Source: Bacteroidota bacterium
GTDB taxonomy: Bacteria; Bacteroidota; Bacteroidia; Palsa-948
Reading direction: 5' to 3'
DNA: 40,840 nt
NCBI GenBank assembly: GCA_023251625.1
Contig: JAHEYK010000008.1
Location: forward strand, 6,237-47,076
Below are positions 15,155 through 40,811 of this stretch, piece by piece (position 1 is the stretch's first letter; every line of letters starts with the position of its first letter). Made by a program: the position numbers and the translations under genes. The notes below the pieces were generated by a model. That model was not told the origin of the DNA and made no database searches. It was given only the letters and a program-made list of their open reading frames with translations.

Positions 15155-15805
15155 ATGAAATTGTTGGCCGGCTGCTTTTTGTCTACCCGCCTTTGGCGAG
15201 GCTCGCCCTTTTGGGCGGCTGTCTACTGTCTACTTTCCGTTGTAGCATTTGCACAGACGGATTCAACCGCTTCTCTCAAAAAGGGAATAGCTTTGTTCAA
15301 CGAAGGTAATTTTGAAGGGGCGCAGGTTGAGCTGAATAAGGCAACAGAACAGAATGCTAAAAATCCCGATACATTTTTTTATTTGGCGGAAGTTTCTTTC
15401 ATGCAAAATGATAATAAGAAGGCCATGGAGAACTATAACAAGGCCATTATTCTTAACCCATCCCATCCGAAAGCCTATAAGGGCCGGGGTAGGGTGAAAG
15501 CCAGGATGGAAGATTATTATGGCTCGATCGAAGATTTTACAAAAGCAGCCGAAGCCGATAAAAATTATGCCGATGCATTTTTTAACAGGGGCTTGTCCTA
15601 TCTTAATCTCAAAGATTATTCAGCAGCCATCACTGACTTTTCAAAAGCGATAGAGTTGAACGCCAAGGATTATCAGGCCTATGCTGAACGGGGCGAAGCA
15701 AAGTTTCACCAGGCAGACAAGAAAGGTGCATGCTCTGACTGGAGCAAAGCAGGCGAACTGGGGTACTTCAAAATTTACGATACCATCAAAAAAAATTGCA
15801 AATAA
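15155..15805 (+). CDS. secreted/periplasmic TPR protein
   Basis: Signal peptide then repeated TPR units (FFYLAEVSFMQNDNKKAMENYNKAIILNPSHPKAYKGRG; AFFNRGLSYLNLKDYSAAITDFSKAIELNAKDYQAYAERG). Confidence 0.88.
   Translation: MKLLAGCFLSTRLWRGSPFWAAVYCLLSVVAFAQTDSTASLKKGIALFNEGNFEGAQVELNKATEQNAKNPDTFFYLAEVSFMQNDNKKAMENYNKAIILNPSHPKAYKGRGRVKARMEDYYGSIEDFTKAAEADKNYADAFFNRGLSYLNLKDYSAAITDFSKAIELNAKDYQAYAERGEAKFHQADKKGACSDWSKAGELGYFKIYDTIKKNCK
15180..15233. repeat. TGTCTAC heptamers interrupted by a 33-bp double-hairpin palindrome, inside a signal-peptide coding region
   Basis: TGTCTAC (15180-15186), 33 bp CCGCCTTTGGCGAGGCTCGCCCTTTTGGGCGGC (15187-15219), then TGTCTAC x2 (15220-15233). Confidence 0.8.
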
Positions 15806-15806
15806 C

Positions 15807-16181
15807 ATGAACTCTCTATTTATAGAAGCGAACGACAACACGACCCCTGCTATAACCTTGGATAAATCAAAAGGAAATTTTGAGATCTCAGGCTGGTCAC
15901 ACCCCGAGGATGCTATCCAGTTCTACGCTCCCATTTTTGAATGGCTTAACAAGTATGTGGGAGAACCTAATGTTGAAACAGTTTTCAAATTTCATTTTCA
16001 GTATTACAATACAGCATCGGCAAAACAGATATTCAGGGTCATCTCTTTGTTGGAGGAAGTGGCCAAGAAAAGTAAAACAAAGATCGTATGGAAATACGAA
16101 AGCGATGATTCTGACATGCTCGCATCCGGAGAGCGCTTCTCTAAAATGAGTACAGTGCCGTTTGAATTTGTTTCCTGCTGA
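15807..16181 (+). CDS. DUF1987 / SiaC-family regulatory phosphoprotein
   Basis: TPAITLDKSKGNFEISGWSHPEDAIQFYAPIFEWLNKYV...FQYYNTASAKQIFRVISLLEE; starts 1 nt after the TPR gene stop. Confidence 0.85.
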   Translation: MNSLFIEANDNTTPAITLDKSKGNFEISGWSHPEDAIQFYAPIFEWLNKYVGEPNVETVFKFHFQYYNTASAKQIFRVISLLEEVAKKSKTKIVWKYESDDSDMLASGERFSKMSTVPFEFVSC

Positions 16182-16183
16182 GC

Positions 16184-18238
16184 CTACACCTTTATTCCTG
16201 CAACTAGTATATCGTCCAACTGAGGGCGTTTCCCTTTCCACTCTTCAAAAGCCTTTTGAACAGCATATTCCTGTTCTTGTGCGCCTAAAGGAGAGACGGC
16301 AAGAAAAAGTTTTTCCAGTTTCCGTACTAAGAATTTCTTTCCCACTTCCCCTCCTACCTGATCAGCAAATCCGTCCGTAGTGAAAAAAAGACTTGTATCC
16401 CTTTGCAGAACAAGCTCATGTTGTGTGAATGAAACGCTTTTTTGGCCAAACATACTTCCAATGGAATGGATATCCCCTTTGATCTCCCGCATCGAATTTT
16501 CATGTGCTACATACAGGGAATGATTGGCGCCTGCAAACGTTATTTTATTTTTTCCCTTCTCAAAAAGACAGACCGAAACATCCATTCCGTCATCCTGCGA
16601 ACGCGACTCCTGATGCAGGGCTTTTACGATCCCCTCGTTGAGCTGGTTCAATATATCGGCCGGTTGAAAAACATGCTGTTCATTCACGATCTCATTCAAT
16701 AATGTATTCCCGATCATGCTCATGAAAGCCCCCGGTACTCCATGCCCGGTGCAGTCAGCAATGACCAGAATAGCTTTTCCGTTGTCTTTACCCCCCTCTC
16801 CTTTGGGAGAAAGGTTGGGGGCTAGGTTGGAATACCAGTAAAAATCACCGCTTACAATATCGCGCGGCCGGAAGAAAATGAAATAATCTGAAAAATATTT
16901 TGAAAGGTCTTCTTTTGAAGGAAGAATGGAATCCTGTATTCGTTTTGCGTAATTGATGCTGTCTGTAATATGCTTGTTTTTTATGTCAACGGTCCTTTTC
17001 TGTTCTTCGATGACCAGCTTTTGCTCGCGAGTTACCTTCAGCCTGTTGAATATAAGGAAGGCGAATGCGATGACAAAAAGCAACCCTATCACCACAGCTC
17101 CTATGATGATACGCTGTATCCGTACCTGGGATTTCTGTATCTCTCCGTCTTTGGTAAGTAGCTTGATCTCGCCTTCTTTCTTTTCTGTGTCGTATTTCGT
17201 TTGCATTTCCTGCTGGCTTTTTTCACTCTCTTCGTTCTTCAAGCTGTCTTGTATGTCAGAGTAGAGCTTATGATATTCGTAAGCTTCACGGTAATTCCCT
17301 ATGGCCGAATCACATTTTGACAGGGAGAGATATGAATATATAATATATGTTTTAGATCCGATATCTTTTGCTGCTGCCAGCGATAGGAGCTGCATCTTTT
17401 TTGCATCCTCATACTTCTTTTGCAGCAGGTAAATATCCCCCAGGTTGTTGTAGGCAACAGATAAGCCCCTTTTGTCGTGGTTTTTATTCATGATATCTAT
17501 CGCTTTCATGAAATATTCCCCCGCCTTTTGATAATCTTTTTTGAAATTATAATAGATGCCAATATTCACATAGGATTCCGCTACATGCGTTACATCCTTT
17601 ATCTCTTCACGCAGCTTTAGGGAGCTTATCAGATATGAGAAACAACTGTCAAACTCGTTTTTGTCCTGGTAAATAAGTCCTATGTTATTGTAAGTCATCG
17701 ACAGCATCAGTTTATTGCCGATCTCTTCCGAGATCTTCAGGGATTTTTTATACCATGGTAATGCTTTGTCAAATTCCCCCTTTTGCAGGTATACATTGCC
17801 AATGTTGTTTAATGAGGCCGCGATGCCCTGTTTATCTTCCAGCTTTTCCCTGATCGACAATGCTTTGAGGTGGTGCTCGATCGACTTGTCAAAATCACCT
17901 TTATAAATGCTGGCGATCCCGATCCAATTGTACGCCATGGCCAGCATTTTTTGGATAGCGGCATTTTGTGTGACTGAAGCTGACCCATGACTATTGGATT
18001 CTGTAATGCTATTAATTACCATTTTACCTATATAGATCGCAGTATCATATTGTCCTATTAGCAGGTATTGTCGTGCCAATGCGGTCCGTGCACGGTATAT
18101 TGAAGTGTCGTTCTTGCCGGTTCTAATGACTACATTCAGCGAATCGATAGTACTGTTTTGCGAAAATGAAATGTCCAGTAAGAATTGGCCCATGAACAGA
18201 AAAAGAGCCCTTAGCAAGGTTTGATTGAAAACATTCAT
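16184..18238 (-). CDS. TPR repeats - TM - SpoIIE/PP2C-type serine phosphatase
   Basis: Signal peptide, multiple TPR, TM (IIIGAVVIGLLFVIAFAFLIFNRL), NKHITDSINYAKRIQDSILPS, VSGDFYW, ADCTGHGVPGAFMSMIGN, QDDGMDVSVCLF, TTDGFADQ. Confidence 0.93.
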   Translation of the reverse strand: MNVFNQTLLRALFLFMGQFLLDISFSQNSTIDSLNVVIRTGKNDTSIYRARTALARQYLLIGQYDTAIYIGKMVINSITESNSHGSASVTQNAAIQKMLAMAYNWIGIASIYKGDFDKSIEHHLKALSIREKLEDKQGIAASLNNIGNVYLQKGEFDKALPWYKKSLKISEEIGNKLMLSMTYNNIGLIYQDKNEFDSCFSYLISSLKLREEIKDVTHVAESYVNIGIYYNFKKDYQKAGEYFMKAIDIMNKNHDKRGLSVAYNNLGDIYLLQKKYEDAKKMQLLSLAAAKDIGSKTYIIYSYLSLSKCDSAIGNYREAYEYHKLYSDIQDSLKNEESEKSQQEMQTKYDTEKKEGEIKLLTKDGEIQKSQVRIQRIIIGAVVIGLLFVIAFAFLIFNRLKVTREQKLVIEEQKRTVDIKNKHITDSINYAKRIQDSILPSKEDLSKYFSDYFIFFRPRDIVSGDFYWYSNLAPNLSPKGEGGKDNGKAILVIADCTGHGVPGAFMSMIGNTLLNEIVNEQHVFQPADILNQLNEGIVKALHQESRSQDDGMDVSVCLFEKGKNKITFAGANHSLYVAHENSMREIKGDIHSIGSMFGQKSVSFTQHELVLQRDTSLFFTTDGFADQVGGEVGKKFLVRKLEKLFLAVSPLGAQEQEYAVQKAFEEWKGKRPQLDDILVAGIKV
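16790..16826. repeat. palindromic element inside the phosphatase domain (CCTAGCCCCCAACCTTTCTCCCAAAGGAGAGGGGGG on coding strand)
   Basis: CTCTCC-TTT-GGGAGA core flanked by C-run/G-run; encodes NLAPNLSPKGEGG absent from all five paralogues in the window. Confidence 0.7.
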
Positions 18239-18248
18239 TTGTTGTGGA

Positions 18249-20351
18249 TCATATTTTTATACCAATTAGGAGTACATCATCTACCTGTTGTTTTTTGCCT
18301 TTCCAGTCTTCAAATGTCTTTCTCAGTATCTGGCCCTGCTCGGTTGCGGTATGCGAGGATACAGATGATAAAAGTTCTTGAAAACGTTTGGTCATGAATT
18401 TTTTTCCTTTATCCCCTCCCGGCTGGTCCGCATAACCATCTGATGACAGAAAGAGGGTGGTGTTCTTCTGTAATGTGATCTCCTTTTGTGTGAAGGAATC
18501 TTTCTTTTTCCCAAACACGCTGCCGATGGAGAAGTAATCGCCTTCGAGTATGGAGAGTATTCCTTCATGAGCCACAAAGAGCGAGTGATTAGCCCCGGCA
18601 AAAGATAACTTGTTTGTATGGTGGTCGAACAGGCATAATGTTATATCCATTCCATCATCTTGTGATCGGGACTCCTGGTGAAGCGCATGAACGATCCCTT
18701 CATGGAGATGATTCAGGATCTCGGCCGGCTGTACTATTTTCTGCTCATTTACAATTTCGTTGAGCAACGTGTTGCCTATCATGCTCATGAATGCGCCAGG
18801 TACACCATGGCCGGTACAATCTGCAACGGCAAGCACAGTTTTGTTATTTTGTCTCGACAGCCAATAAAAATCCCCGCTTACGATCTCACGGGGTTGAAAG
18901 AGCACAAAATTTTCAGGGAAACATTTTTTCATGTCTTCGACTGAAGGAAGAATAGCATCTTGAATGCGTTTAGCATAGTTTATACTGTCAGTGATGTGTT
19001 TGTTTTTTTGTTCAACAATGAGTTTTTGATCTTCGATCACCAGTTTTTGTTTACGCGTTATCCTCCAGGACCGGAAGATGATCAATGCGATAGCAGCAAT
19101 GGCGGCTGCCACAGCACCCACAAGCCATAGGAACAATTGCTGCCTTCGTTTTTCTTCTTTGGCTATGGCGTCACGTTTTTCCTGTTCTAATTTTTCGGCA
19201 GCTTGTTTCTTGTCAAATTCATAGTTCATCTGTGCCTGCACGGTCTTTTTAGTATTGCCTTCATTGAAAAGACTGTCACGCGCAAGAACCGATTGCCTGT
19301 AATGTTCCATGGATTTTTTCCATTCATTTTCTATTTTGTAAAGGTCACTTAGCCCTTGATGCCATTGTTGTTGCCCTGCCAGGTCATGTATATCTATAGA
19401 GAGAGAAAGAGCTTTTTGTAAATACTCTTCTGCGATCGTAAGATCATGGTGTTTCAAATAAAGGGCTCCGATATTACCCAATGCCAGGGCAGTACCTGTT
19501 TTATCTCCCATTTCCTGCATGATCTTCAGTTCTTTTGAATGATGATCCAGGGCTTTTGGAAAATCACCTTGTGAGTCATACACGGTTCCTATGTTCCCGA
19601 GCAGCGTTGCAATGGCCTGTTTGTATCCTGATTCCTCCGCCATTTTCAAGGCCTTGAAGTCGTATTCAAGAGCTTGGGAATAATTTTTTTGATCGCTGTA
19701 CACGATCCCAATGTTAGTGATGTTCCGTGCAATGCCTATCTTATCACCCATTTCTTCGGCCATGTGCAGTGCCTTGAAGTTATATTTCAAAGAGTTTTCA
19801 AAATCCTTTTGATTATAATAGGTAATACCAATATTCCCACATGTGTTTGCGATCAATAATTTGAAATTTAATTCCTCTCCTATTTTCAACCCCTTTAAAT
19901 GATATTCTAAGGCTTTGGGATAATCTCCAAGCAACTGGTAAACAATTCCAATATTGGCGAATGCTTTTCCAATTCCGGTTTTATATCCTATCTCTTCATA
20001 TAATTTCTGGGCTTTAAAATAGTTTTCAAGTGCTTTCAGATGATCTCCTTGCAGGTCTACTACATTTCCGGTCCTTAAATAAGCCTCGGCAATGCCCTTT
20101 TTGTAATCGACCTTATTTGCAAGCGACCATGCATGGTTCGCATGTTCTTTAGCCTTGTCGTATTCTCCCATGTTCTTGAATTGCAGGCAAAGCAGGATAT
20201 GGGTGTTCACCTGATCGGTATCGGAAGAGAAGGTCTCAGTTTGTTTGCTAAGGAATTCTACCCTGTGCAGCAAAGAGTCGATCATCGGATTTTGCCCGAA
20301 AAGCCGAAGTGAAAGAATAAAACACGAAAAGAAGGTAGCAGCCCTTTTCAT
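18249..20351 (-). CDS. TPR repeats - TM - SpoIIE/PP2C-type serine phosphatase
   Basis: Seven or so TPR units, TM, NKHITDSINYAKRIQDAILPS, VSGDFYW, ADCTGHGVPGAF, QDDGMDITLCLF, SSDGYADQ. Confidence 0.94.
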   Translation of the reverse strand: MKRAATFFSCFILSLRLFGQNPMIDSLLHRVEFLSKQTETFSSDTDQVNTHILLCLQFKNMGEYDKAKEHANHAWSLANKVDYKKGIAEAYLRTGNVVDLQGDHLKALENYFKAQKLYEEIGYKTGIGKAFANIGIVYQLLGDYPKALEYHLKGLKIGEELNFKLLIANTCGNIGITYYNQKDFENSLKYNFKALHMAEEMGDKIGIARNITNIGIVYSDQKNYSQALEYDFKALKMAEESGYKQAIATLLGNIGTVYDSQGDFPKALDHHSKELKIMQEMGDKTGTALALGNIGALYLKHHDLTIAEEYLQKALSLSIDIHDLAGQQQWHQGLSDLYKIENEWKKSMEHYRQSVLARDSLFNEGNTKKTVQAQMNYEFDKKQAAEKLEQEKRDAIAKEEKRRQQLFLWLVGAVAAAIAAIALIIFRSWRITRKQKLVIEDQKLIVEQKNKHITDSINYAKRIQDAILPSVEDMKKCFPENFVLFQPREIVSGDFYWLSRQNNKTVLAVADCTGHGVPGAFMSMIGNTLLNEIVNEQKIVQPAEILNHLHEGIVHALHQESRSQDDGMDITLCLFDHHTNKLSFAGANHSLFVAHEGILSILEGDYFSIGSVFGKKKDSFTQKEITLQKNTTLFLSSDGYADQPGGDKGKKFMTKRFQELLSSVSSHTATEQGQILRKTFEDWKGKKQQVDDVLLIGIKI

Positions 20352-20378
20352 CTAACAAACTTAAGAAATTACTGCCAA

Positions 20379-22577
20379 TTATACTTTTATTCCCAGGACC
20401 AACACATCATCGACCTGCTGCCTGGTATTTTTCCAGCTTTCAAATGTCTTTTTCAATACATCTTCCTGCTCGTTGATGGGGTACCCCGATATACTAAGCA
20501 AAAGCTCTTCAAATTTTTTGGTCATGAATTTTTTCCCTTTTTCACCGCCCGGCTGATCGGGATATCCGTCCGATGATAGGAATATAGATGTATTTTTTTG
20601 CAACCTGATCTCCTTCTGGGTAAATAAAGTTTGCTTTTTACCGAACATGCTGCCAATAGAAAAATAATCCCCTTCAATTTTTGAAAGAGATCTTTCATTT
20701 ATGATATAAAGAGAGTGATTAGCGCCGGCAAAATAAAGAATATTTGTTGTGTGATCGAACAGGCACAGCGTGATATCCATTCCATCATCTTGTGAACGTG
20801 ATTCCTGGTGAAGCGCGTGAACAATGCCCTCATTCAAATGATTTAGTATCTCAGCCGGCTGAATTATTTTTTGCTCATTAACGACCTCGTTCAATAATGT
20901 ATTGCCGATCATACTCATGAACGCTCCGGGTACCCCATGTCCGGTGCAATCGGCAAGGGCCAGGATCGTCTTGTTACCTTGTTTTGACATCCAGTAAAAA
21001 TCTCCGCTTACGATATCTTTTGGCTGAAAAAATACAAAGTGATCCGGAAAACATTTTGTTAATTCTTCCTCCGATGGCAAAATGGAATCCTGGATACGTT
21101 TTGCATAGTTGATGCTATCGGTGATGTGCTTGTTCTTCTGATCAACGATCTTTTTTTGTTCTTCAATGAGCATTTTTTGTTTGCGTGTGGCCCTTAACCG
21201 GTTGAAAATAAAAACAGCAAAGAGTGCTACCATGAGCAATCCGACCCCGATGGCATATGAAATTATCTGCTGTCGTTTTTTGCCTTCTTCGGCAACGGCC
21301 AGTTCTTTTTGATGTTCAACCGTTTTAAGAGCCTCCTGTTTTTCGTAGTCATATTTCATTTGCTGCTTGAACGTAGACTTATGGGTCTCTTCGCTGAAAA
21401 TGCTGTCACGCATTTGTACAAATAATTCATGCATGGCAAGTGCATCCTGCCATTTTTTTTCTTTACTGTAGATCTTATATAAAACCTCTGAGGCGCTTTG
21501 TATAGTAGATGGAAATTTAATTTCCTGCCCTATTTTCAAGGCGCGTTTTCCTGTCTCTTCCGCCAGTGCCATCTTGTTTTCATGAAAATATACCCGGCTC
21601 ATCCCCTGTAATGTATTAGAAAGGCCTTCCCAGTCCTTTATTTCTTCGAAAACGTCCCGGGCCTTTGTGAGATTTTGCATGGCCAGGGAATAGGATGTAT
21701 CCTCCATGGCGGGAATATCATTTGCTCTTCTCAGGTAAGTGATCCCTACATTTAGTAACGTGGTTGCATACCCATGCTTATCGCCCAGTTTGCTCCAGTG
21801 GAAGAAGCTTTTTTGAAAATATTCGAGAGCGAGCGGATAATTTTTTTCGTTTCGGTAGGTAACGGCAATATTGGTGAAGGAATAGGCAAGTCCAAGATCA
21901 TATTTCAATTTTTCCAGTATGGCAACTCCTTTTTTGAGGTAGAGCAGTGCCTTTACAGTATCATCCTGATCAATGAACATCCTGCCTATGTTGTTAAGGG
22001 CATTGGCAGTCATTACTTTGTCACCCATCTCCTCATCCAGTTTTAAACTCTGGAACTCGTAATCAAGTGCTTTTTGAATGTTCCCTTCCTGGTTAAAAAC
22101 AACCGACATATTGTTGAGCGTGCCGGATATGCCTAACTTGTTCCCTGTTTCGCGCAACACTTTCAGGCTTTTTTCATAGCAATCGAGTGCCTTATTTTTA
22201 TCTCCATGGAGCGTATAATACAGGCCGATATTCTGAAGAGAGTTTCCAAAATAATTTTTTACTAGGTCAAGGTCTGAGTGCGAAAAGGAAGCGGAATCAG
22301 ACAGCATGGAGCGTGTCTTATCGTATACCAAGAGAGAATACTGGTGCCATGTTTTCGAATCTCCCAGGCTTGATGAAAGCACATCCAAAACGCGGAGTTT
22401 AGCAGTATCGGTTTTGGCGTTATGATACAACGGAAGGAGGGAATCAAGCACCGCTTTGTCGTTCGGAGCCATCGCTTCATAGTCTATCGAGTCTATAAGA
22501 AAATATTCTTTTCCTTTTTGGCCAAAAGAAAAAATCGGACCCAGCAAACAAATCAGTATAACAAGATATATTCTCAT
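20379..22577 (-). CDS. TPR repeats - TM - SpoIIE/PP2C-type serine phosphatase
   Basis: Same architecture; N-terminal KGKEYFLIDSIDYEAMAPNDKAVLDSLLPLYHNAKTDTAKL shared with the next paralogue. Confidence 0.94.
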   Translation of the reverse strand: MRIYLVILICLLGPIFSFGQKGKEYFLIDSIDYEAMAPNDKAVLDSLLPLYHNAKTDTAKLRVLDVLSSSLGDSKTWHQYSLLVYDKTRSMLSDSASFSHSDLDLVKNYFGNSLQNIGLYYTLHGDKNKALDCYEKSLKVLRETGNKLGISGTLNNMSVVFNQEGNIQKALDYEFQSLKLDEEMGDKVMTANALNNIGRMFIDQDDTVKALLYLKKGVAILEKLKYDLGLAYSFTNIAVTYRNEKNYPLALEYFQKSFFHWSKLGDKHGYATTLLNVGITYLRRANDIPAMEDTSYSLAMQNLTKARDVFEEIKDWEGLSNTLQGMSRVYFHENKMALAEETGKRALKIGQEIKFPSTIQSASEVLYKIYSKEKKWQDALAMHELFVQMRDSIFSEETHKSTFKQQMKYDYEKQEALKTVEHQKELAVAEEGKKRQQIISYAIGVGLLMVALFAVFIFNRLRATRKQKMLIEEQKKIVDQKNKHITDSINYAKRIQDSILPSEEELTKCFPDHFVFFQPKDIVSGDFYWMSKQGNKTILALADCTGHGVPGAFMSMIGNTLLNEVVNEQKIIQPAEILNHLNEGIVHALHQESRSQDDGMDITLCLFDHTTNILYFAGANHSLYIINERSLSKIEGDYFSIGSMFGKKQTLFTQKEIRLQKNTSIFLSSDGYPDQPGGEKGKKFMTKKFEELLLSISGYPINEQEDVLKKTFESWKNTRQQVDDVLVLGIKV

Positions 22578-24785
22578 TTATAGTTTTATTCCGGCAACCA
22601 GCACATCGTCTGTTTGTCCGTAGGCTCCGGCCCATGAATTGAGTTTTGTGTGTATTATCCGTTGTTGTTCTTCAGCACCCACTCCTGCTATGGACGCAAA
22701 CAGTTCTTCCAGGCGTTTTGTGCCAAATAGCTTTCCCGCTTCGCCCCCGCGCTGCCCGGCAAACCCATCTGAGCTCAGATAAACATACGTAGCTCCTTCC
22801 ATGTTGATCTCATGCTGTGAAAACGAAACATTTTTTCCCCCAAACACTCCTCCTATGGAGAACACATCCCCACTGATCATGCGCAATGCCCCTTCCTCGG
22901 CTATATACAATGAATGGTTTGCTCCGGCAAAAGTGACCTTATTTTCCTCGAACAGACAGATAGAAATATCCATTCCGTCATCTTGTGAGCGCGATTCGTG
23001 GTGAAGAGCGTGTACAATACCTTCGTTCAGGTGATTCAGGATCTCGGACGGCTGAAATATTTTTTGCTCATTTACAATTTCGTTCAACAAAGTATTCCCG
23101 ATCATGCTCATGAATGCGCCAGGCACTCCGTGCCCGGTACAATCGGCCACCGCAAGGATAGTTTTGTCATTGTGCCGGGATAACCAGTAAAAATCTCCAC
23201 TCACGATGTCTTTAGGCTGAAAGAAGACGAAGTAATCGGAAAAACATTTTGACAATTCCTCTTTCGATGGAAGAATTGCATCCTGTATTCGTTTCGCGTA
23301 GTTGATGCTGTCGGTGATGTGCTTATTTTTTTGTTCAACGGTCTTTTTTTGCTCTTCGATGATGAGTTTTTGCTTGCGCGTTATTTGCAGGCGGTTGAAA
23401 ATGAAGATTGCGAACAGGGTCATCATGAGCAGGCCAAGCCCCACACCATATGAAATGATACGCTGCCTCTTTTTTCCTTCTTCGGCCACAGCCAGTTCTT
23501 TCTGATGTTCCCCATTTTTTATAGCCTCTTGCTTTTCATATTCATACGCTAATTGCTTTTTTATAGTTGATTTTTTGGTATCTATATTGAAAATGCTGTC
23601 TCTCATGTGTATGGTCAGTTCGTGCATATGAAGCGCCTCTTCCCAGTTTTCCTGTTGTTTATATACAGAATACAGCAGGCGGGATGCGCTTCGAATATTT
23701 ACAGGGTGTCCGATCTCCTTGCTGATCTTTAACGAACGCAGGCCGTATTTCAAAGCCTCCAGGTCATTGTTTTCAAATAAAAAATGATTGCCTATCATGG
23801 TAAGCACTATGGTCATGCTCCGTTTGTCTCCAAGGTCTTCACTTATTTTCAGGCTTTTGAGCATAAATTCCAGAGCCTTTGGAAAAAGTGTATCCGGAAT
23901 CGGTTTGCCTTCACGTTTTAATTTTTCCCCCTCCTGCTGATAAATTCTGCCAAGATATTGCATGCAAAATGAAAGCCCCTGCCTTTCTCCAAGTTCTTCC
24001 CACAGTTTTACGCTACGCCTGAAGTAAATAAGGGCCTTCTCATCTTCATGATGGAGGCTAAGGAAATTTGCCAGCTGGCTCAGGGAAATACCCAGCCCGT
24101 GCTTATCACCTCCGCCTTCGCGGAGTTTCAGGGATCTTAACTGGTATTCAATTGCTTTTGCAGTATCTCCCTGTTCAAGATAAGTAGAAGCCAGATTACC
24201 GAGGGTGTAGGCCAACCCTAAACCATCCTTGATATCCTCCTGGATTTTTACACTTGTCATATAATATTCAATGGCTTTGCTGATATTACCTTGCTGGTAA
24301 TGCGAGATACCAATGTTATTCAGGGTATTTGCGAGCCCCTTTTTATCCCCGATCTCTTCCTGGATCTTCCGGCAACTGTTATAATATACAAGGGAAACCG
24401 GGATATTGGCATTGAAGTTCTGTTCATAGTATCCTTTATCCTGAAGCGACATCGCGTATGATTTTTTTACCGATAGGATCTCCTCCCGAGACAAAGACCG
24501 TGAATTTTTAAGAAGCTGTTCTGCTTTTTTATTCAGCAGGTCATTGTACCGGGGCCAAAGTGTTTCGTCACTGAGGCCCTCGGCAAACGAAACGAGTATC
24601 TTCAGTTTTGTTGTATCATTTTTAGCAGCATGATAAACAGGTAGCAAAGAATCCAGCAGGGCTCTATCGCCAGCAGGAAGGGAATCATAATTTACAGAAT
24701 CAACCAGGAAGTACTCTTTTCCTCTCTGGGAAAGGGATGAGATTGAGATCAGCAACGCGAGGAGCGAAACAAAAGCATACTTCAT
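22578..24785 (-). CDS. TPR repeats - TM - SpoIIE/PP2C-type serine phosphatase
   Basis: Same architecture; stop codon immediately abuts the downstream paralogue start (TAA at 22580-22578, ATG at 22577). Confidence 0.94.
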   Translation of the reverse strand: MKYAFVSLLALLISISSLSQRGKEYFLVDSVNYDSLPAGDRALLDSLLPVYHAAKNDTTKLKILVSFAEGLSDETLWPRYNDLLNKKAEQLLKNSRSLSREEILSVKKSYAMSLQDKGYYEQNFNANIPVSLVYYNSCRKIQEEIGDKKGLANTLNNIGISHYQQGNISKAIEYYMTSVKIQEDIKDGLGLAYTLGNLASTYLEQGDTAKAIEYQLRSLKLREGGGDKHGLGISLSQLANFLSLHHEDEKALIYFRRSVKLWEELGERQGLSFCMQYLGRIYQQEGEKLKREGKPIPDTLFPKALEFMLKSLKISEDLGDKRSMTIVLTMIGNHFLFENNDLEALKYGLRSLKISKEIGHPVNIRSASRLLYSVYKQQENWEEALHMHELTIHMRDSIFNIDTKKSTIKKQLAYEYEKQEAIKNGEHQKELAVAEEGKKRQRIISYGVGLGLLMMTLFAIFIFNRLQITRKQKLIIEEQKKTVEQKNKHITDSINYAKRIQDAILPSKEELSKCFSDYFVFFQPKDIVSGDFYWLSRHNDKTILAVADCTGHGVPGAFMSMIGNTLLNEIVNEQKIFQPSEILNHLNEGIVHALHHESRSQDDGMDISICLFEENKVTFAGANHSLYIAEEGALRMISGDVFSIGGVFGGKNVSFSQHEINMEGATYVYLSSDGFAGQRGGEAGKLFGTKRLEELFASIAGVGAEEQQRIIHTKLNSWAGAYGQTDDVLVAGIKL

Positions 24786-34610: not shown

Positions 34611-37600
34611 TTATACTTTTATTCCCATTACCAGTATGTCATCAATCTGCTCAAGGTTGCCTCTCCATGCTTCGATCGTATTGTTCAGGGTCTTTTTCTG
34701 TTCTTTCATAGTGTCATTCTGAACCGATAAGATCAATTCTTTCAATTTACTGCGTTTGAATTTTTTTCCGTCTTTGCCGCCAAACTGATCGGCATAACCG
34801 TCTGAAAAAAGGTAGATGGCATCGCCTTTTTGAAGGGCCATTTCGTGATTGGTAAAATTTTTACGGGAGATATACTGGCCTATGGGCTGTTTATCGCCTT
34901 TTATTTCCTGCAGTATTCCGTTGCGAAGTAAGAGCATGGGGTGGTTAGCTCCGCTGAATTCCAGTTTCATGTTTTTCCGGTCCAATGCACAGAGTGAAAT
35001 ATCCATGCCATCTTTTATATCCTGAGTTTCTCCTCCCCGGCTTAATACATCGGTGACACCCTCATTCAGCCTGTCGAGGATGCTTGCAGGGGTGCGCTCT
35101 TTGAACATGATCAGCGCACGCTGGATATTTCCGTGTGCCACCAAACTTACGAAAGCGCCCGGCACCCCGTGGCCGGTGCAGTCAATGGCGGCAAAAAATA
35201 ATTTATCGTCTTTTTTATTTACCCAGTAAAAATCGCCCGATACAATATCTTTTTGCTTAAAGAGCACAAAATATTCGCCCATGTGCTCATCCATATATTT
35301 TTTGGCAGGAAGAAGCGCATCCTGTATTCTTTTTGCATACCGGATACTGCTCGTGATGTCGTTATTTTTTTCTTCAATTATTTTTTTCTGCTCAACCACT
35401 TCGCGCGTACGCATCTCTACCTTATCCTCGAGCAGCTGATTTTGTTTCTGCAGGTTCTTCACCTTCCATTTCATAAACCCGTAAAAGCCGGTGACAATAC
35501 AAACGATACACACTGTAAAGAACCATATTGTTTTCCAGAAGGGAGGCTTGATGATGAACTGATATGAAACAGGTTGCCCCCAAATTCCTTCGGCATTGGC
35601 GGCACATACCTTGAACGTATATTCTCCGTTGGGCAGGCTGGGGTAGGAGGCTCTTCGGTTTTCGGTGGGCAGAGACCAGTCTTTATCATATCCTTCCAGC
35701 ATGAACTTGTATTTCACTTTATCAGGGGCTTTGAGATAAACGCCCATGAACTCAAAAACAAATTGATTATGCTTGTAGTCAAATTCCGATCTTGCATTCA
35801 GGGGATAGAGTTCAAACATGACCTGCAAGCCGGTAAATTCAACCTTGGGGGTGAGATAGTCGAGCGAATCAAGTGATGAACGGAATTTTACAACGCCATG
35901 ATCGGTTCCGATCAAAACATTTCCGGTTTTATCGCGGAAGCATACATTCTGGTTGGGAGAAAAATCAAGGCCCGATTCATTTAGATTATAGTGCCTTACG
36001 TGCGTGGGATCTGTAGTGTTGATCACATCAATACCGCTGTTATGAGCAACCACAAGATCGGTACCGGCACCCATTGAAAGGATGTCGGGAGAGAGGTCAC
36101 GGATCCCATTTTCTGTTCCATAGTTGGTAAATGTTCTGCCGTTGTAGGAATAAATACCACCTTCTTGTGTACTGAACCAGATGATCCCATTTTTATCTTC
36201 CAGGATGGAATACACGATGTCGCTTTTAAGCCCACCTGCTTTTGTATTGAAGGTGGTGAAATGGGATCCGTCATACCGGGTGATGCCGCCACCATCGGTA
36301 CCGAACCATAAAGCATTACGGCTGTCGCGGAACGCGTAGTAGGCATAAATACTTCCTATGCCGTCATCTTCCGAATAATTTTTTACCGTCATCTTGCCTT
36401 TGTAATTATCCTCCGAGAAAGATATTTTTGAAACACCACCGCCCAGTGTTGCCATCCATATGTTTCCGGCTTTATCATCGCAGATCGACATGATATTGCT
36501 ATTGGCAAGCCCCTGCGCTTCGGAATAGGAAGTGATAGAACCGGTGCGGGGATCCAGTAAAAAGACCCCGTATCCATACGTTCCAATCCAGATGTTTCCA
36601 TTCCTGCCTTCAAAGAGAGATACGATGCGGAAGTCCGAGGATCTTTTTTCGGCGAAATATGTTTTCCGCTGAGGCATGCCGGACTCATCAAAATGAAAGC
36701 TGAACAAGCCTGACGGAGAGCTAAGCCAGATATTTCCTTTTGAGTCGACCATAATGGCACGTGCCGAGTCGGATGGGATGCCATCGCGGGATGTGAAAAT
36801 TTCAAAGCGGCTGCGGCAATACTGGCTGAGCCCTTTTTCAGTCCCTACCCAAATATTTTTTTCTGCGTCTTCAAAAAGAGATAACACTTTTACGTTCGCG
36901 TGCTCATTGTGGCCGGCAACGGGGAAACGGAGATATTTGTTATCGTGAACAACAAATGCGATTAATCCATCGGTGGTCTCGGCACCGATCCAGAGGGCGC
37001 CTTTGTGGTCAATGATCATGGAGTAGATGGGGCCAAACTTCCAGCCGCCTGTTAAAGAGGGGCGTATGATTTTTTTAGCGGACAGGTCGTAATTGCAGAA
37101 CCCGGAATCACGCATAGTGATCCATATCTTTCCGGTTGCATCTTTGGTGATGAGCTGAACAATGTTATCAGGCAGGCCATCTTTTGTAGTGATACGGGGA
37201 TATTTTTGCTTATCACTTTTTTCCTCATTGTTCAGTATGGTGATGCCGGCATCAGAGCCCATCCAGATGTTTCCGGGAGATATTTCGGACAATGTATAAA
37301 TGTAATCATCGCCCAGCCCGTTCTTCGTGTTATAATGTGATAGTGATTTCCCATTGTATTTGTAAACCCCTGAACCATACGTGGCGATCCATATATTTTT
37401 ATTTATATCGCTAATGAAGCAAGTAATATGTTCTTTATTGGCTGTATCCTGCAGTGTAAAAGCAGAAAATATTCCGTTCTTCTGAAGCGTGATCTTTCCG
37501 TTCGAGTGGCCGATCCACAAGGTGCTGTCGGGAGCTTCGAACAAGGCGGTAACGGAATTATCAGCCAGGCCGTCTTTTTGCTGAAAGTGTTTGTATGCAA

Positions 37601-37820
37601 TGCCGTTGTAGCTTACCAGGCCGCTTTCTGTTCCTACCCAAATAGTCCGGCTGTGATCTTGCGCAATGATTTGAACTTTAATTTCTTTTTTCCCGGAAAT
37701 AAGCTGATGGTTTCGTATGTTTTGCTGAGAGAACGCAATACCAGTAGACAGTAAGCAGTAGACAGTAGGCAACAATACAGCCAAATAGAAAGACAATGAT
37801 TTAATATTTCGGGAATGCAT
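34611..37820 (-). CDS. Reg_prop beta-propeller - Y_Y_Y - TM - SpoIIE/PP2C-type phosphatase
   Basis: Repeated WIG(T/S)..G(L/V) propeller motifs, YKFMLEGYDKDWSLPTENRRASYPSLPNGEYTFKVCAANAEGIWG, TM, DITSSIRYAKRIQDALLPA, VSGDFYW, IDCTGHGVPGAF, FSDGYADQ; ATG at 37820 preferred over TTG at 37844. Confidence 0.92.
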   Translation of the reverse strand: MHSRNIKSLSFYLAVLLPTVYCLLSTGIAFSQQNIRNHQLISGKKEIKVQIIAQDHSRTIWVGTESGLVSYNGIAYKHFQQKDGLADNSVTALFEAPDSTLWIGHSNGKITLQKNGIFSAFTLQDTANKEHITCFISDINKNIWIATYGSGVYKYNGKSLSHYNTKNGLGDDYIYTLSEISPGNIWMGSDAGITILNNEEKSDKQKYPRITTKDGLPDNIVQLITKDATGKIWITMRDSGFCNYDLSAKKIIRPSLTGGWKFGPIYSMIIDHKGALWIGAETTDGLIAFVVHDNKYLRFPVAGHNEHANVKVLSLFEDAEKNIWVGTEKGLSQYCRSRFEIFTSRDGIPSDSARAIMVDSKGNIWLSSPSGLFSFHFDESGMPQRKTYFAEKRSSDFRIVSLFEGRNGNIWIGTYGYGVFLLDPRTGSITSYSEAQGLANSNIMSICDDKAGNIWMATLGGGVSKISFSEDNYKGKMTVKNYSEDDGIGSIYAYYAFRDSRNALWFGTDGGGITRYDGSHFTTFNTKAGGLKSDIVYSILEDKNGIIWFSTQEGGIYSYNGRTFTNYGTENGIRDLSPDILSMGAGTDLVVAHNSGIDVINTTDPTHVRHYNLNESGLDFSPNQNVCFRDKTGNVLIGTDHGVVKFRSSLDSLDYLTPKVEFTGLQVMFELYPLNARSEFDYKHNQFVFEFMGVYLKAPDKVKYKFMLEGYDKDWSLPTENRRASYPSLPNGEYTFKVCAANAEGIWGQPVSYQFIIKPPFWKTIWFFTVCIVCIVTGFYGFMKWKVKNLQKQNQLLEDKVEMRTREVVEQKKIIEEKNNDITSSIRYAKRIQDALLPAKKYMDEHMGEYFVLFKQKDIVSGDFYWVNKKDDKLFFAAIDCTGHGVPGAFVSLVAHGNIQRALIMFKERTPASILDRLNEGVTDVLSRGGETQDIKDGMDISLCALDRKNMKLEFSGANHPMLLLRNGILQEIKGDKQPIGQYISRKNFTNHEMALQKGDAIYLFSDGYADQFGGKDGKKFKRSKLKELILSVQNDTMKEQKKTLNNTIEAWRGNLEQIDDILVMGIKV
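37742..37769. repeat. heptanucleotide tandem CAGTAGA CAGTAAG CAGTAGA CAGTAGG in signal-peptide coding region
   Basis: Four 7-nt units in register; encode PTVYCLLST on the minus strand. Confidence 0.8.
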
Positions 37821-37840
37821 CAAAAAGATATAAAACAAAA

Positions 37841-38395
37841 TCAACTGGGTTTCAATACAACTTTGACAATCACTTCAATTATCCTTGCCATAGAAAGAGA
37901 ATTCATTTTAGACACTTTTATGCCATGTTCTTCTACCGGAAGCTTAAATTTTGATTCAACAATGATCTGGCCTGCGGAGACAATAATTTTTGTATCGATG
38001 ATGCGTTCTTTTTCTACTCCGTGAAGCAAGAACATACCTTTTCCCCGTATGGAATAGGTTCCGGGCACTGACAGATCTACCTCTTCAATAATCTTTCCTT
38101 TAAAGCCGGTGTCAGGATATTTGGGGCCCTCAACAAATTTTTCGCAGTAATGCTTTTTCTGTGTGGCATTATAAAATCCCTCGAAGGAACAAATAGGTAA
38201 TGTAAAAGAAAAGGTATGATTTTGTATGTCGAGACTGCCGGTCATTTTTTCCGAAACTCCCCGTATCTTTCCAAAACTGGCTTCGGAGAGAAATGATACA
38301 GATGAAGATTGAATGGAATAAACATCGGTATTCCGTGGTGAGAAAGAGGAGCATATAACAGCCAACAGAATGCTAAGTAAGCAGATCCTATTCAT
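37841..38395 (-). CDS. YceI-like secreted protein
   Basis: SSSVSFLSEASFGKIRGVSEKMTGSLDI...GPKYPDTGFKGKI...IRGKGMFLLHGVEKERIIDTKI; ATG at 38395 (alternative GTG at 38404). Confidence 0.78.
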   Translation of the reverse strand: MNRICLLSILLAVICSSFSPRNTDVYSIQSSSVSFLSEASFGKIRGVSEKMTGSLDIQNHTFSFTLPICSFEGFYNATQKKHYCEKFVEGPKYPDTGFKGKIIEEVDLSVPGTYSIRGKGMFLLHGVEKERIIDTKIIVSAGQIIVESKFKLPVEEHGIKVSKMNSLSMARIIEVIVKVVLKPS

Positions 38396-38516: not shown

Positions 38517-40811
38517 CTATATTCTGACACCTATTACTAATACATCATCAATTTGTTCCAATTCACCCTGCCAGGATACGAATGACTTTTCGAAAATATT
38601 TCTTTGCTCCAGCATGGGGAGATGTGCATTAGCGAGTATCAGTTCTTCGAGCTGTTTATATTTGAATTTTTTTCCTTTCGGGCCTCCAAACTGATCGGCA
38701 AATCCGTCTGTAAACGAATAAACAATATCTCCTTTTTCCAGCGGAACCGTTTGCAGCGTGAAAGGTTTATATACGCTGTGAAACCCAACCGGCTGTTTGT
38801 CGGGTTTATATTCTTCGATCTCCGTGGTGCCATTCTTTAATATCCAAAGCGGGTTGTTGGCTGCAGCAAATTCCACCTGTTTATTTTTGATGTCAAAGGA
38901 ACAGAGCATGCAATCCATTCCATCCTTACTTTCTGTTTCGGTGCCTTCCGGATTCAGGATGGCTATAATCTGTTCGCGCACATTGTTCAGGATGAGATCA
39001 GGGCTTGTGATTTTGCGCTGCAGGGTGATCTCGTTCAGCAGGGAAATGTTGAGCAGGCTCATGAATGCCCCCGGAACACCGTGGCCGGTACAATCGGCAG
39101 TTATAATGAGGAACTTCCCGTTCACGAAATTTGCCCAGTAAAAATCCCCGCTCACAATATCCTTTGGTTTATAAAGCACAAAAAATTCGGGAAGATTTTT
39201 CTTGAGCAGGGTATCGCTGGCCAGTAGCGCCCGCTGAATGCGTTTTGCGTACTGTATGCTGTCGGTAATGTCTTTGTTCTTTTGAGCGATCTCGGTGTTT
39301 GCTGTTTCGAGGGCAGAATTCTTTTCTTCCATCAAACTATTTTGGTGTTCAATGATCTTCTTTTGTTTGTTGGTAACGCGAAAGCGGTTGTAAATAAACC
39401 CTGAGAAGGCAATGAATAATAGGAGTCCAATGCCTGCTGACCAAATTATTACACGCTGCCTGCGGCTTTCGGATTCAGCGATGGCATTTTGCTTGTCCTG
39501 TTCGGCCTTGAGAAGCTGTTCTTTCTTTTCAAATTCCAGACGGGATTCTTCCTGCACTAATTTTTTTGCTCCATCTACGTTGGTGAGCTTATCTTTTTGC
39601 TCAACATAACGTTTATAATAAAAAAGAGACTTTTCAAATTGTTTCAGATCATAATAACTGCTGCTTAAATATTCGCAGGCGTATTGGGTTTGTTCCGCAT
39701 CGCTGATACTGTCGGCCAACGCAAGTGCTTTTGAAGCATAATGAATGGATTGGGTAGCTTTGTTCTGAAGGCGATAATGTTTGGCAAAATTGTTGAGGGA
39801 GCGGGCAATGCCGCTTTTGCTATCGAGATCCACATATACATCGAATGATTTATTCAGGAATTTCAGCGCCATCGTGAAATCCTGCAGGAACCAATAAACA
39901 TTTCCAATATTGCTATAAACAGTAGCCATGAGATCTTTTTCATCACTGCCTTCCAATATGTCAAGGGTGCGGGTGTAGTTGTCCAAGGCAACCATAAATT
40001 TGGATTTTCGCTCCTCCGGATTTTTAGACAGTTCCCCCTCTGACACATATACATCTGAAATATTATTGAGTAGCTGAGCGATCTCATTTCGATTGCCCAA
40101 TTCTTTTTGTATGCTCAGCGCTTTTTGATAGTAGTTCATAGCCTTCTCAAATTCTTTCAGGCGCTCGTAGGCAATTCCAATGTTGTTCAGCGCAGAGGCC
40201 AGAAAGCTGGATCTTTCCCCTATGGCTTCATAAAGTTGAACGGATTTGAAACCAAAATCAATCACCTTGTAGTAATCAGGAATATCAATATAGGCGCTAG
40301 CTATGTTCAGGTACGAGCGTGCCATGCCGGAGGTGTCATTGATCTGCTGTCTGAGCTGAAACGATCGGGTGTGATTTTCGATAGCGCGCTTTTTGTCACC
40401 GATGAGATCGTGGGCATTTCCGATGTTATTGTAAGAGGAGGCAATGTCTTTTTTGTCGCCTAAAGCGATGCGTATCATTAAAGCTTTTTGGTTATACTCT
40501 AGTGCTTTCAGCCCGTTTCCAAGATTATAATAGGCAACCCCAATATTATTTAATGCTTGTGCCGTGCCTTTTTTATAGCTCAATTTTTTGCTCAGCTCCA
40601 TTACCCGCAATTCGAGAGTAATCAATTTCTCGTTGTCATCAAGCTTCCTGCACAGTTTATTCAGGGAATCTATCTTGCCAGGACTGTCTTTGAGAGAAGA
40701 GAAGGCATTTTCAAAATCAGTAGTGCTAACCTGTGAAAAAGACGTATTCATGTACGCAAAGAGCACGTATAAAAAAAGCAAAATGGTATGGTGAAAATGG
40801 ACTCGTTTCAT
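38517..40811 (-). CDS. TPR repeats - TM - SpoIIE/PP2C-type serine phosphatase
   Basis: Many TPR units (ALNNIGVAYYNLGNGLKALEYNQKAL), TM, NKDITDSIQYAKRIQRALLAS, VSGDFYWANF, ADCTGHGVPGAFMSL, SKDGMDCMLCSF, FTDGFADQ. Confidence 0.94.
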   Translation of the reverse strand: MKRVHFHHTILLFLYVLFAYMNTSFSQVSTTDFENAFSSLKDSPGKIDSLNKLCRKLDDNEKLITLELRVMELSKKLSYKKGTAQALNNIGVAYYNLGNGLKALEYNQKALMIRIALGDKKDIASSYNNIGNAHDLIGDKKRAIENHTRSFQLRQQINDTSGMARSYLNIASAYIDIPDYYKVIDFGFKSVQLYEAIGERSSFLASALNNIGIAYERLKEFEKAMNYYQKALSIQKELGNRNEIAQLLNNISDVYVSEGELSKNPEERKSKFMVALDNYTRTLDILEGSDEKDLMATVYSNIGNVYWFLQDFTMALKFLNKSFDVYVDLDSKSGIARSLNNFAKHYRLQNKATQSIHYASKALALADSISDAEQTQYACEYLSSSYYDLKQFEKSLFYYKRYVEQKDKLTNVDGAKKLVQEESRLEFEKKEQLLKAEQDKQNAIAESESRRQRVIIWSAGIGLLLFIAFSGFIYNRFRVTNKQKKIIEHQNSLMEEKNSALETANTEIAQKNKDITDSIQYAKRIQRALLASDTLLKKNLPEFFVLYKPKDIVSGDFYWANFVNGKFLIITADCTGHGVPGAFMSLLNISLLNEITLQRKITSPDLILNNVREQIIAILNPEGTETESKDGMDCMLCSFDIKNKQVEFAAANNPLWILKNGTTEIEEYKPDKQPVGFHSVYKPFTLQTVPLEKGDIVYSFTDGFADQFGGPKGKKFKYKQLEELILANAHLPMLEQRNIFEKSFVSWQGELEQIDDVLVIGVRI

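Follow-up and report, generated by a model that had tools for sequence, protein, structure and literature searches.

Bacteroidota genomes encode dozens of SpoIIE-type sensor phosphatases to which no substrate has been assigned. In the stretch of DNA analyzed here (40,840 nucleotides from a Bacteroidota bacterium; assembly GCA_023251625.1, contig JAHEYK010000008.1; hereafter, the window), four such genes stand in tandem and run convergently into a gene for a SiaC-like phosphoprotein. The question raised by this arrangement is whether the neighboring protein is the substrate of the four enzymes and, if so, which kinase opposes them and what the resulting switch controls. The initial annotation, made from the sequence alone, proposed that the phosphatases converge on this single SiaC-like substrate, with their TPR domains as different sensory inputs, and placed the kinase and the output elsewhere or considered them new.

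Genes of the locus and their conservation

Judging by its sequence and predicted fold, siaC (Table 1) encodes a genuine SiaC-family protein that keeps the phospho-threonine position. The Pfam profile search scored 113.2 bits against a curated cut-off of 24.5 (E 7.6e-33), bearing out the proposed DUF1987/SiaC identity at the family level, while the score for true SiaC stays under the equivalog cut-off (70.8 versus 150 bits). A sequence search of the PDB matched SiaC at 5e-10 with T69 aligned to T68 of the Pseudomonas aeruginosa protein, and in the AlphaFold model (pLDDT 86.6) this threonine, lying in the NTxS loop, opens helix 2 (residues 69-86). The eight best PDB fold matches of the model are all Pseudomonas SiaC crystal chains (TM 0.82-0.88), the top match being 7e6g_D (TM 0.88). 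Re-examination found the original coordinates and gene calls correct, including the convergence of four TPR-TM-SpoIIE genes with siaC across a gap of 2 nt. A scan for promoters and terminators returned about equal numbers of matches in the real sequence and in shuffles.

Table 1. Coordinates of the features discussed, in window numbering or, for relatives, by locus
Feature	Position	Strand	Basis
TPR protein with signal peptide, 1 nt 5' of siaC	15155..15805	+	Pfam; order conserved in genus
siaC, SiaC-family (PF09345/DUF1987) phosphoprotein, 124 aa	15807..16181	+	Pfam, PDB sequence match, fold match
T69 codon, predicted phosphorylation site in FQYYNTASAKQ	16011..16013	+	Alignment to P. aeruginosa SiaC T68
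TPR-TM-SpoIIE phosphatase 1 (SiaA-type PP2C), stop 2 nt from siaC stop	16184..18238	-	Pfam, typing, motifs
TPR-TM-SpoIIE phosphatase 2 (SiaA-type)	18249..20351	-	Pfam, typing, motifs
TPR-TM-SpoIIE phosphatase 3 (SiaA-type)	20379..22577	-	Pfam, typing, motifs
TPR-TM-SpoIIE phosphatase 4 (SiaA-type)	22578..24785	-	Pfam, typing, motifs
Fifth SiaA-type phosphatase, Reg_prop beta-propeller and Y_Y_Y sensor, outside SiaC-linked clade	34611..37844	-	
Sixth SiaA-type phosphatase, TPR sensor, outside SiaC-linked clade	38517..40811	-	
Coiled-coil and TM proteins after siaC (relatives)	L140:5495-6049, L120:5396-5947, L088:9524-10288, L227:3934-4494, L228:6741-7325, L232:6508-6972, L121:5512-5976		

In the product of each of the four tandem genes, all matched by Pfam for both TPR and SpoIIE, a single strong transmembrane segment separates the TPR region at the N terminus from a C-terminal SpoIIE domain in which the catalytic motifs GDFY, DCTGHGVPGA, [ST]DG[FY], and DD[IV] are intact (4/4). 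The PP2C domains are 63-76% identical in pairwise comparisons, and the regions preceding them only 31-43%. Similar catalytic domains behind diverged sensor regions fit a system of different inputs acting on one substrate, so that the suggested role of the TPR domains as distinct inputs is compatible with the sequences. The two other phosphatases of the window, which did not figure in the original finding, are 43-46% identical to the PP2C domains of the array.

The likeness of these enzymes to SiaA is supported by two approaches. A search of all PDB chains with the SpoIIE domain from phosphatase 1 returned SiaA (6k4e) as the sole match (2e-34), and in bit-score typing the SiaA-type domains scored 114-129 bits to SiaA versus 0-29 to RsbU-type enzymes; the metal-binding residues are conserved, and the assignment is to the SiaA type rather than to SiaA itself, since the equivalog cut-off is not reached (174 versus 700 bits). 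In the genome as a whole, 20 of the 21 SpoIIE domains are SiaA-type, six of them in the window. The sole RsbU-type enzyme is a GAF-SpoIIE-like protein on contig C91, which matched Rv1364c and response-regulator phosphatases in the PDB and SiaA merely at 0.0045.

Conservation of the neighborhood, a check suggested at the outset, was found in the genus: five of six genus-mates share the order flavin reductase, DUF3127, TPR, SiaC, convergent TPR-SpoIIE, acyl-CoA dehydrogenase, which indicates that the pairing of SiaC with a phosphatase is more than chance. Those five genomes have one SiaA-type phosphatase at the locus, versus four here, and the array is thus particular to its own genome in this sample. 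Genus-mate G004 has a second SiaC, 59-61% identical, that is likewise convergent with its own phosphatase of the SiaC-linked clade. This clade unites the ten SiaC-linked phosphatases (four here and six from the genus) with support 100/100, and all 18 remaining phosphatases of the tree fall outside it. Within the tree, phosphatases 2-4 branch outside the group formed by phosphatase 1 and the genus-mates, and three genus-mates carry TPR regions resembling phosphatases 3-4 together with PP2C domains resembling phosphatase 1. Given this branching and mixed resemblance, an array of old origin, later altered by losses and gene conversion, appears as likely as a recent duplication of the four genes, which the tree does not return as an exclusive group. 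In genus-mate G006, a second tandem gene that had been considered a broken phosphatase is actually a TPR-class III cyclase; it retains the TPR-TM plan, and its C-terminal end is a class III nucleotide cyclase.

Dispersed short repeats were observed in signal-peptide coding DNA, both in the window (15155-15260 and about 37740-37844) and elsewhere (L029:4651-4780, L046:3230-3345, L040:5660-5775, L038:4655-4780). They comprise runs with a period of 7, such as CTACTGTCTACTGT, and a palindromic element rich in G+C, TACCCGCCTTTGGCGAGGCTCGCC..TTTGGG..GGCTG, and they translate as 'YCLLSTAYC' or 'PPLARLALLGGCLL'.

The kinase and the class-wide association

A genome search located a SiaB-family kinase outside the window, at C161:24376-24900 (172.7 bits versus a cut-off of 85), which matched SiaB of the SiaB-SiaC complex in the PDB (4e-15). 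On that contig, a beta-propeller SiaA-type phosphatase is followed by SiaB and directly thereafter by another SiaC. The earlier expectation of a kinase that is elsewhere or new therefore holds in its first part, the kinase being encoded in a canonical SiaB-SiaC operon, and fails in its second. In total, the genome (79% complete) contains six SiaC, one SiaB, and 20 SiaA-type phosphatases; the single-SiaB count drawn from this incomplete assembly agrees with that of G004 (95% complete), where seven SiaC, one SiaB, and 20 SpoIIE domains were found. With one SiaB for many SiaC proteins in both genomes, the window locus most likely depends on a kinase supplied in trans and common to several SiaC proteins. 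The genome also contains two near-copies of a cluster of SiaC, a MarR regulator, and a YceI-like gene (L032:428-1336 and L033:3897-4805), with neither SiaB nor a phosphatase nearby. In other families, SiaB occurs as two-domain fusions and also as three tandem genes (L085:10981-12096, L084:10430-11725, L087:10046-11736).

Among 60 relatives, SiaC and SiaB are present in the identical 44 genomes, which together contain 799 SpoIIE domains (mean 18), versus 0-3 per genome (mean 0.6) in the other 16. The 20 SpoIIE domains sampled from those 16 genomes are all RsbU-type. A larger set of 247 genomes of the class gave a similar picture, with both SiaB and SiaC in 136 genomes, one only in three (two of them marginal), and neither in 108; four or more SpoIIE domains were counted in 120 of the 136 double-positive genomes and in none of the 108 lacking both genes, with counts in part of the set capped at about 12. 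These co-occurrence statistics treat genomes as independent and only four families (f3, f15, f19, and f22) are mixed, but the contrast persists within all four. SpoIIE counts track SiaC copy number (rho 0.61), and among genomes positive for SiaB/C, STAS counts are unrelated to SpoIIE counts (rho -0.03; a weak 0.42 over all 60), a result by which STAS proteins were rejected as the substrates. Taken together, the association with SiaB and SiaC, the RsbU-type enzymes of the negative genomes, and the lack of tracking by STAS suggest that, in these bacteria, the expanded set of sensor phosphatases very probably acts on SiaC.

The neighborhoods of SiaC genes agree with this association. A census of 129 SiaC genes from 41 genomes and 31 families, biased to relatives of the window SiaC, found SiaB adjoining 76 (30 families) and a SpoIIE gene no more than three genes away from 42 (19 families), compared with an estimated 4-5 expected by chance given how densely SpoIIE genes occur genome-wide. 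Of the 129 proteins, 127 have T or S at the phosphosite. Orphan SiaC genes without SiaB are frequent (51/129), and the window locus is thus one among many in-trans modules.

Candidate outputs

The output of the window system is not a SiaD-type diguanylate cyclase, as far as a 79%-complete assembly allows this to be excluded, since no GGDEF domain was found in this genome or in any of the 60 genomes searched. Of the initial view that the output lies elsewhere or is new, the possibility of SiaD encoded elsewhere, and with it a c-di-GMP output, is thereby ruled out within the same limit of completeness. Three leads come from relatives, none of them at the window locus. In six families, small proteins with a coiled coil and a transmembrane segment are encoded directly after siaC (Table 1) and carry a box, e.g., LTSVSDRLQ, reminiscent of the SiaD stalk, in which residues S82, D83, R84, and Q86 contact SiaC (PMC8457831). 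This docking-like box was found three times in the 520,000 residues of the loci examined, always directly after siaC, with approximately one occurrence expected by chance, and two more occurrences were found in a later sample. The box-bearing proteins are homologous to one another, the box being more degenerate in the f43, f64, and f70 members, and had no convincing Pfam match; neither the box nor a coiled-coil partner was found in the window or in the loci examined from the same genome.

A TerB-ABC-2 transporter gene lies no more than two genes from 21 SiaC genes in 13 families, and in G046 a gene located between siaC and the transporter gene joins the N-terminal TerB-ABC module to a SiaC domain (L198:6425-7549; 28% identity over 218 residues, 1e-14). 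The remaining lead is the TPR-TM-class III adenylate/guanylate cyclases of G006 (L081:5619-7385 and L113:4045-5979), which are encoded beside SiaC at two loci, one of them a SiaB-SiaC-cyclase operon. There may be an even chance that these observations reflect an arrangement general to a class of Bacteroidota, in which dozens of TPR and beta-propeller phosphatases per genome act on a few SiaC proteins and are opposed by one or a few SiaB kinases, with coiled-coil proteins, TerB-ABC transporters, or TPR-class III cyclases as new partners in place of a c-di-GMP cyclase.

Proposed switch and comparison with known systems

The locus probably encodes a threonine-phosphorylation switch of the SiaABC type that receives input from several phosphatases and lacks SiaD. 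By analogy with the Pseudomonas system, each of the four proteins would expose its TPR sensor on the outer side of the cytoplasmic membrane and keep its SiaA-type PP2C domain on the inner side, and external signals would switch on one or more of them. In the presence of a signal, the PP2C domain would strip the phosphate from T69 of SiaC, and the unphosphorylated protein would use its T69-bearing face to bind a helical partner. SiaB, encoded elsewhere and apparently common to several SiaC proteins, would reset the switch by adding the phosphate back. That all four sensors act on the window SiaC is the best reading, against which stand five other SiaC proteins in the genome; the phosphatases could act on several of these or on another. 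Of the convergence originally proposed, the pairing of SiaC with a phosphatase is conserved, whereas the window SiaC is not the one possible substrate, because the genome has six.

These numbers bear on two alternatives. The SiaC proteins may form a pooled, cross-talking set in which every member is a substrate for the single SiaB and for each of the SiaA-type phosphatases, the members differing solely in output partner. The ratio of one SiaB to six or seven SiaC proteins in this genome and in G004 would fit such a pool, as would the correlated copy numbers of SiaC and SpoIIE; however, SiaC of the window type keeps its own clade of phosphatases, suggesting at least a preference, and a fully shared set is conceivable but unlikely. 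Unlikely as well is that phosphatase 1 or another single member of the array serves the window SiaC while the rest have moved to other SiaC proteins, the tandem arrangement recording descent. Such a division of labor is consistent with the 20 SiaA-type phosphatases and six SiaC proteins of the genome, with the single phosphatase by which the genus-mates manage at this locus, and with the branching of phosphatases 2-4 apart from phosphatase 1 and the genus-mates. Few residues can also suffice to change specificity within this family of enzymes, and a few loop residues can strongly shift substrate preference among related phosphatases (PMC11418112). Nevertheless, the PP2C domains of the array are more alike than those of the other two window enzymes are to them, and they group with the orthologues of the genus in a single clade.

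It is highly improbable that the phosphatases serve a STAS/anti-sigma partner switch (RsbU-RsbV-RsbW-like) and adjoin SiaC by chance. STAS proteins are the classical substrates of SpoIIE domains, and the genome has three STAS domains; yet the window domains are SiaA-type, the sole RsbU-type enzyme is encoded elsewhere, the number of STAS domains does not track that of SpoIIE domains in genomes with SiaB and SiaC, and the adjacency of SiaC is conserved.

The near-exclusive link to SiaB and SiaC names a substrate family for the SpoIIE phosphatases of Bacteroidota and turns the question of their substrate into a simple assay. The data also suggest a SiaABC switch that works without c-di-GMP across a whole class, and they point to concrete output proteins. 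A search of the open-access literature found no paper on SiaC/DUF1987 outside Pseudomonas, which is not proof of absence.

Compared with known systems, the window proteins belong at the family level to the SiaB-family kinase/SiaC families (NCBIfam NF038262, Pfam PF09345), with scores that exceed the curated cut-offs without reaching the equivalog thresholds set for true SiaC and SiaA. The resemblance to the Bacillus subtilis RsbU/SpoIIE-RsbV/SpoIIAA partner switch is one of logic only: a PP2C/SpoIIE-fold phosphatase acts on a STAS-like phosphoprotein and is opposed by a dedicated kinase. The families here are SiaA and SiaC, the gene adjacent to the SiaA-type phosphatases encodes SiaC and not a STAS protein, and no anti-sigma factor was recognized at the locus. 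With P. aeruginosa SiaABCD, the system shares the SiaA-type PP2C sensor phosphatase, the SiaB kinase family, and the NTxS phosphothreonine loop of SiaC. It differs in having four phosphatases, TPR sensors, six SiaC proteins in the genome, a kinase encoded away from the locus, and no GGDEF protein where P. aeruginosa has SiaD; because the operon is without the kinase and the genome without SiaD, the locus is better described as a relative of SiaABCD than as a member of that system.
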